Positions 1,552-1,731 of a stretch of 63,058 bases of DNA are shown one piece after another. Each line of letters starts with the position of its first letter. Within the stretch, counting starts at the first letter, position 1. The stretch lies in contig JAJXZT010000041.1 in the NCBI GenBank assembly GCA_021779935.1, positions 1 to 63,058 on the forward strand. Reading direction: 5' to 3'. A program made the position numbers and the translations under genes. The DNA comes from Acidobacteriota bacterium (lineage in GTDB: Bacteria; Acidobacteriota; Terriglobia; Terriglobales; Acidobacteriaceae). Under the pieces are notes generated by a model. It searched no databases and was not told the DNA's origin. It saw nothing but the letters and a program-made list of their open reading frames with translations.

Positions 1552-1581
1552 TTGACTTTCCTTCAACTCCTCGCGTATCTT
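1552..1581 (+). promoter_or_regulatory. predicted sigma70-type promoter of the metYX leader
   Basis: TTGACT at 1552-1557 and TATCTT at 1576-1581 with an 18-bp spacer. Transcription would begin around 1588-1592, at or a few bases before the ATG of the leader peptide, so the leader would be leaderless or nearly so. Confidence 0.6.
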
Positions 1582-1591
1582 CAATTTCACG

Positions 1592-1669
1592 ATGTTGCAG
1601 TTTCTTACCAACACGACCATGGCCATGTGCATGTGTATGCTGCGCACCCGTGGGCGTGTCGTCAGTTAG
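1592..1669 (+). CDS. Met/Cys-rich attenuator leader peptide (metYX leader)
   Basis: A 25-codon reading frame whose centre reads TTMAMCMCML: four Met codons (besides the start) and two Cys codons clustered at 1619-1639, just before a terminator and directly upstream of metY-metX. Both residues are linked to the products of the downstream pathway (sulfhydrylation of acetylhomoserine, leading to methionine). The 3' half of the frame overlaps the left arm of an antiterminator (1650-1665). This is the layout of ribosome-mediated transcription attenuation. The start could also be the internal ATG at 1619. Too short for routine gene callers; the attenuation role is inferred from sequence only. Confidence 0.75.
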   Translation: MLQFLTNTTMAMCMCMLRTRGRVVS

Positions 1670-1702
1670 CCGCTGACCAACACAAAGTTCCTGACGACCC
1701 AC
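1650..1702 (+). promoter_or_regulatory. antiterminator stem of the metYX attenuator
   Basis: GTGGG (1650-1654) plus TCGTCAG (1659-1665) can pair with CTGACGACCCAC (1691-1702), leaving a 4-nt bulge. The right arm contains the 5' half of the terminator stem, so the two folds exclude each other. The left arm lies inside the last codons of the leader peptide and would be covered by a ribosome that reaches the stop at 1669. Confidence 0.7.
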
Positions 1703-1731
1703 GGACAGCTTCCGCGGGTCGTTTCTTTTTT
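1695..1731 (+). terminator. intrinsic terminator of the metYX attenuator
   Basis: A 10-bp stem, CGACCCACGG (1695-1704) with CCGCGGGTCG (1712-1721), one A.C mismatch and a 7-nt loop, followed directly by tttctttttt (1722-1731). It lies 45 bp before metY and cannot serve an upstream gene other than the leader peptide. Confidence 0.85.

Follow-up and report, generated by a model that had tools for sequence, protein, structure and literature searches.

We found that the metY-metX operon of this Acidobacteriota bacterium is very probably controlled by a ribosome-mediated transcription attenuator that would read the charging of tRNA-Met and tRNA-Cys. The stretch of DNA analysed (hereafter the window) spans 63,058 nt, and all of the features described in it lie on the (+) strand. 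A short leader open reading frame (ORF) at 1592–1669, with its ATG at 1592 and its TAG at 1667–1669, encodes a 25-residue peptide, MLQFLTNTTMAMCMCMLRTRGRVVS, centred on TTMAMCMCML. Leader codons 10–16 (1619–1639) make up the putative control codons Met-Ala-Met-Cys-Met-Cys-Met. Downstream lies metY (1776–3110), encoding O-acetylhomoserine sulfhydrylase, followed after 2 nt by metX (3113–4192), encoding homoserine O-acetyltransferase. That such a frame precedes metY-metX had been the starting point of the original prediction, and this was confirmed, with the gene identities backed by NCBIfam and Pfam: metY matched TIGR01326 above its cut-off as well as PF01053, and metX matched NF001209 above cut-off. 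The elements of a trp/his-type attenuator were all present, namely a leader ORF with control codons, an intrinsic terminator, and an antiterminator just after the control codons. Elsewhere in the window, two short intergenic stretches that resemble each other (245–300 and 1495–1530) precede genes and look by eye to be rich in words like CTAATACC and CTAGTACC.

The 5′ strand of the antiterminator (1650–1665) consists of GTGG at 1650–1653 and GTCGTCAG at 1658–1665, and its 3′ strand (1691–1702) of CTGACGAC at 1691–1698 and CCAC at 1699–1702. The resulting 12 pairs fall in two blocks (GTGG/CCAC and GTCGTCAG/CTGACGAC) and are all Watson-Crick. The 3′ strand overlaps the 5′ arm of the terminator, as predicted, and pairing of 1650–1665 with 1691–1702 would exclude the terminator. 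The duplex scored −24.5 kcal/mol; 2 of 100 mononucleotide shuffles did as well, as did 3 of 59 duplexes in which a relative's strand had been substituted. The intrinsic terminator (1693–1732) is a hairpin at 1693–1723 followed by the U-rich tail TCTTTTTTG; the terminator and its tail stood as predicted but the 10-bp stem did not, as the stem has 12 pairs around one 1 × 1 mismatch (−19.6 kcal/mol). A terminator scan did not list this terminator because it disallows a stem with a mismatch. In the minimum-energy fold, a strand 1:2 hairpin at 1611–1659 completes the classic 1:2, 2:3 and 3:4 set, and it would tie up some of the antiterminator 5′ strand whenever strand 1 is not masked by a ribosome. 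The leader as a whole (1588–1736) was predicted to fold more stably than its shuffles (z = −3.3; 2 of 200).

In the mechanism that we propose, RNA polymerase would start on the leader AUG or only a few bases from it, placing the ribosome on a leaderless or nearly leaderless mRNA. When charged tRNA-Met or tRNA-Cys is short, the ribosome would stall in MAMCMCM with its A-site at 1619–1637 and its front edge no further than about 1649, masking strand 1 and leaving 1650–1665 free to capture 1691–1702, so that no terminator would form and metYX would be read. If neither amino acid is scarce, the ribosome would run on to the stop at 1667 and cover strand 2, and the terminator (1693–1723) would form; with no translation, the 1611–1659 hairpin and the terminator would both form. 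The analysis itself shows how the sequence is built, its conservation and covariation, and which genes follow it; translation of the leader, stalling, antitermination, the start and the termination of transcription in vivo, the response to either amino acid and the counting of both are what we infer.

We modelled the fold of the RNA ahead of a ribosome, assuming that its front edge reaches 12 nt beyond the base that opens the A-site codon. With the ribosome on codons 10–15, the terminator arm was held by the antiterminator strand until 1716 had been transcribed, and on codon 16 this pairing lasted until 1710. On codons 22–26 the terminator alone formed, and without a ribosome the model gave the 1:2 hairpin and the terminator. 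A ribosome on codons 6–9, before the Met/Cys run, freed the antiterminator equally well; the fold alone therefore cannot single out the Met/Cys codons, and it is the conservation of the run that does so. Once fully transcribed, the terminator state (−31.4 kcal/mol) is favoured over the antiterminator state (−20.0 kcal/mol) by 11 kcal/mol, and antitermination would therefore have to be kinetic. The stop codon lies 30 nt beyond the last Met/Cys codon in the window and a median of 42 nt beyond it across 50 leaders, so that in many leaders a ribosome at the stop would leave the antiterminator strand unmasked.

Upstream of the leader is a sigma-70-like promoter (1552–1581), with TTGACT at 1552–1557 and TATCTT at 1576–1581 separated by 18 nt. 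The promoter had been predicted to start transcription at the leader ATG; the promoter itself held up, but the predicted start falls about 3 nt upstream of the ATG, the −10 box in the window ending 10 nt before it. Consensus matches of this quality are not rare (2 found against 1.3 expected in a 5-kb stretch). Across the family, 58 leaders were covered by a promoter scan blind to start codons; in 50 of them the −10 box ended 6–9 nt short of an in-frame leader ATG, the gap being exactly 7 nt in 39 (42/48 and 31/48, respectively, without 10 leaders chosen by pattern, described below). Because of this recurrent 6–9 nt gap, the leader ORF is probably leaderless, with a predicted transcript start at or next to its AUG. 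By eye, the leader AUG has no purine-rich Shine-Dalgarno sequence; metY is preceded by one.

Lack of conservation of the Met/Cys run in related species had been named beforehand as one of the findings that would refute the prediction, and it did not occur, the run being conserved in the family. A MetY search of 399 genomes of the class gave a match at 1e-80 in 153, and the best 30 loci, all from the window's family (f1), were read; one was dropped at a contig edge (L017), leaving 29 testable. Among these best-matching loci, 27 of 29 combined a terminator before metY with a leader in which four or more of 8 codons were Met/Cys; the run reached at least 5 in 23 and at least 6 in 17. The two testable loci without a leader were L020 and L028, and in L028 metY closely follows an ORF that resembles homoserine dehydrogenase (named by eye). 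In a second collection of 80 loci, all 25 titled Acidobacteria, Acidobacteriaceae, Acidobacteriales, Granulicella or Terracidiphilus had a run of at least 4. No Met/Cys run was found there in L139 from Bryobacteraceae, which we take to be of the same phylum as the Acidobacteriaceae loci.

With 10 extra leaders from a Met/Cys pattern search, 60 upstream regions were scored. Four loci (L101, L104, L113 and L117) had been removed as duplicates of L009, L024, L033 and L034; L115 and L182 represent a single leader but were both kept, and L025 was scored in different frames in different counts. A run of at least 5 was present in 50 of the 60 and of at least 6 in 37, or in 40 and 27 of 50 once the pattern-found leaders, which are non-independent for the run, were removed (L178, L180, L182, L183, L184, L187, L189, L193, L205 and L206). 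By comparison, 2400 dinucleotide shuffles gave a run of at least 5 in 0.25% and of at least 6 in none. A run of 4 is by itself not unusual, whereas one of at least 5 is: other acidobacterial regions taken as controls had a run of 4 in 4 of 60 and of at least 5 in 0 of 60, and those from other phyla had a run of 4 in 6 of 55 and of at least 5 in 3 of 55, a set that numbers 52 when the candidates L177, L131 and L123 are excluded. Of those three regions with at least 5, L145 sits behind a SAM-IV riboswitch and the other two are leader candidates. The shuffles and control regions rule out a chance origin of the run. Within the family, the flanks of the run vary and the order and codons of Met and Cys change (58 runs use TGC 73 times and TGT 65 times); these changes of codon and order disfavour a conserved DNA motif without coding meaning. 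Among 30 matches fetched from those listed for the pattern ATGTGYATGTGYATG, 7 showed no clear leader before a gene (L179, L188, L191, L194, L195, L199 and L200).

The alternative pairing had likewise been predicted to be conserved in related species. We aligned 57 of the 60 leaders (A1; L020, L025 and L028 left out) and found compensatory changes in both the antiterminator and the terminator helix, the counts being inflated by kinship of the aligned sequences. In the core antiterminator helix 76.9% of cells were paired, which none of 500 shuffles reached, and slid versions of the helix gave at most 56.8%. Both sides had changed in 31 cells against 13.3 in shuffles (0/500 as high). Pair types were matched in 9 of 500 shuffles, and the 6 of 7 pairs with double changes were equalled by 132 of 500 and so do not exceed shuffles. 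For the terminator helix, 89.5% of cells were paired, with 85 double-change cells against 28.2 in shuffles (0/500); its pairs with double changes were matched in 80 of 500 shuffles and its pair types in 248 of 500. As read from the alignment, the same columns change from GGACCCG/CGGGTCC to GGGTTCG/CGGACCC between groups. The window has a minority antiterminator type (GTGG..GTCGTCAG), and a GTGGG/TGGAA model applied to all 57 leaders was not better than a slide of +2. Support for the window's own form comes from its pairing and its shuffle rank (2/100), and from the similar types in L010 (1/100) and L011 (0/100). Across the 60 family regions, the antiterminator duplex beat 95% of mononucleotide shuffles in 32 and was indistinguishable from shuffles in 28; in L031, L105, L110 and L120 it was worse than the shuffle mean. 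Swapping strands among relatives separated own from swapped duplexes modestly (means of −21.4 and −17.9), because many relatives share one terminator type.

The original prediction had tied the device to metY-metX, where it was found, but this proved too narrow, since cysD and a small number of further genes related to sulfur have it as well. The same leader form lies before cysD-like genes (PF01507) in L202–L204, and in L201 the leader is present and the contig ends. A run of at least 5 in 8 codons was found at 18 of 30 cysD loci, including L311, where it precedes a cobA-like gene, and the doubtful L310, with a longer frame. The scan reached up to 1500 nt upstream, yet all 18 runs fell within 157–277 nt of the match. 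The ratio of Met to Cys was 12:52 in 12 cysD leaders, a selection from the 18 positive loci, versus 197:138 before metY (Fisher 3e-9, ignoring relatedness). The leaders of L305, L309, L321 and L323 had no good intrinsic terminator, and in a re-scan covering 8 of the 30 cysD loci, none of 6 antiterminator duplexes passed the 5% level set by shuffles. The window's own genome gave no cysD match at 1e-60.

Leaders of this form were further seen before a RimK-like ATP-grasp gene (L196–L198), which suggests a link of that gene to sulfur or thiol metabolism, and before one further gene (L192). In one genome each, they precede a tetrapyrrole methylase, probably siroheme synthase (L190), and an NMT1-like binding protein with a possible role in sulfonate uptake (L207). 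A siroheme-type gene was rejected as a general target, the leader occurring in genome G331 only (L190, L311 and L331) and being absent from six remoter homologues (L332–L337). Loci with 200 nt or more ahead of the open frame counted as testable. Among these, the same family showed no Met/Cys run before metE (0 of 12, out of 13 loci) or before MTHFR-domain genes (0 of 26, out of 30); no extension to methylation genes was found. The runs are Cys-rich before cysD, mixed before metY and missing before metE and MTHFR-domain genes; the control codons therefore follow the pathway. From these sequence comparisons, the switch seems to guard sulfur entry and not methylation.

Outside the phylum, we read 30 metY-like loci from each of three further classes, in which 32, 32 and 56 genomes had a match. 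A run of at least 5 was present in 7 of 29 usable regions in Ignavibacteria (the class of L177), in 6 of 30 in Gemmatimonadetes (the class of L123), all among the 13 closest MetY homologues, and in 2 of 28 in Anaerolineae (the class of L131), one of these (L288) without a convincing terminator. The stretch after the run was more complementary to the terminator arm than 95% of shuffles in 6 of 15 cases (L208, L212, L213, L233, L243 and L251). Met/Cys leaders thus appear to precede metY in Ignavibacteria, Gemmatimonadetes and one Anaerolineales genome, with partial support from pairing. Some relatives in those classes carry SAM-I (L230 and L236) or SAM_alpha (SAM-II; L247 and L250) in place of the leader, and L145 has SAM-IV before metY. 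On the (−) strand of L251 (Gemmatimonadetes), a SAM_alpha match at 3108–3182 lies 118 nt before the Met/Cys run of the same metY, making tandem sensing of SAM and charged tRNA possible. In L238, two successive Met-rich leaders precede metY, each followed by a terminator-like hairpin (the second by eye), and these are possible tandem attenuators. About 150 nt upstream of metY, L145 and L142 have very short ORFs, encoding MCCCRMPI and MSCCRMPRF, with GGAGGT immediately before them; that of L145 lies downstream of the SAM-IV riboswitch, and CCRM recurs in some cysD leaders.

Several other readings bear on the same observations. Control of metYX by a SAM riboswitch or T-box, with the ORF arising by chance, has precedent in the SAM riboswitches before metY in other genomes; with no Rfam match at gathering score in the leaders of the window, L001, L031 and L033, and a Met/Cys run beyond chance, we consider it barely credible. 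The sole Rfam match at gathering score in the whole window was a tRNA at 48519. Attenuation in which Cys alone or Met alone is sensed, the other codon serving speed, spacing or RNA structure, is a narrower form of the two-amino-acid attenuator and compatible with it. It is favoured by metY leaders of Ignavibacteria that in some cases consist almost entirely of Met (L232) and by the predominance of Cys in cysD leaders, whereas the family's metY runs retain both, with 197 Met and 138 Cys; we regard it as unlikely, though far from negligible.

The same RNA switch could also be thrown by the peptide itself. Were it an arrest peptide, the nascent MCMCM chain would stall the ribosome on a small molecule (Met, SAM, Cys or sulfide), and the mid-peptide position of the run and its near invariance (MAMCMCM) in part of the family fit this. 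Arrest peptides, however, typically keep specific residues at fixed positions, while here the residues around the run vary, Met and Cys change in both order and number, and other phyla and the cysD leaders have runs of a different composition, leaving this reading improbable. Met and Cys are also metal and thiol ligands, through whose side chains the peptide might sense metals or oxidants, or it might act in trans, for which peTrpL, reported as a trans-acting attenuator peptide in the available text, is a precedent; the terminator would then be incidental. Since most of the genes identified downstream serve sulfur amino acids, and covariation is seen in the pairing that would exclude the terminator, we hold this to be very improbable, and attenuation by Met and Cys codons is the reading that we favour.

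Established controls of methionine genes include SAM riboswitches, T-boxes and protein repressors. In the way its strands can pair (1:2, 2:3 and 3:4) and in taking its control codons from the product of the pathway, the putative metY leader resembles the trp/his-type attenuators of Proteobacteria; those leaders start from a Shine-Dalgarno sequence, and we know of none with Met control codons. In mycobacteria, leaderless polycysteine short ORFs are reported to provide cysteine-responsive attenuation (Canestrari 2020, via PMC9094748 and PMC13236596, in the text available), and the likeness lies in a short leader ORF that is rich in Cys codons and, judged by promoter spacing, probably leaderless here too. 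The leaders described here differ in mixing Met and Cys (197:138 in metY runs), in their metYX target, and in having an intrinsic terminator and a covarying antiterminator. A 2005 survey of Actinobacteria, in its accessible part, described cys leaders without a conserved terminator hairpin and no conserved RNA structures upstream of methionine operons (PMC1262725). Along with the mycobacterial ORFs, the closest known case is metL of Streptomyces lividans, a proposed leaderless Met leader (PMC8079986) that likewise stands before a methionine operon, metNIQ, and whose peptide contains CMCRRMC towards its end. It differs in preceding an import operon, in one genome, without a typical Rho-independent terminator, and the excerpts of that paper call it methionine-dependent and do not name cysteine as a signal. 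In knowing of no such peptide the original prediction was again too narrow, since a Met-rich leader had already been proposed in S. lividans. In Rhodobacterales, uORFC-8-2 before cysS likewise pairs a control-codon leader ORF with an intrinsic terminator, with attenuation inferred, and differs in its two Cys codons, its single tRNA-synthetase gene and its lineage (PMC8632094, in the portion available). The open-licence PMC papers searched, in the portions available, contained one Met leader peptide only and described a Met/Cys attenuator neither upstream of metY-metX nor anywhere in Acidobacteriota, and a 2010 paper, as far as its available text goes, gave a function to almost no predicted attenuator in the phylum (PMC2965389). 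Attenuation itself is known; the Met/Cys-codon version before metY-metX appears to be new.

A broader picture, which we offer tentatively as possible though on balance doubtful, is a sulfur-wide regulon of leaderless Met/Cys attenuators with multiple origins (Acidobacteriota, Gemmatimonadota, Ignavibacteria and Chloroflexota), exchanged with SAM riboswitches before the same gene and giving a biphasic response. The latter would be expected because Met is also the initiator residue: deep Met shortage would block initiation at the leader and termination would return, and the interleaved Cys codons would widen the range. The finding also raises how a Met attenuator copes with Met as its start residue, and the adjacent Met and Cys codons can serve to test whether one leader integrates two amino acids. 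For the family, a codon-reading switch of this kind would span homocysteine synthesis and sulfate activation, with single cases at siroheme and probably sulfonate uptake.
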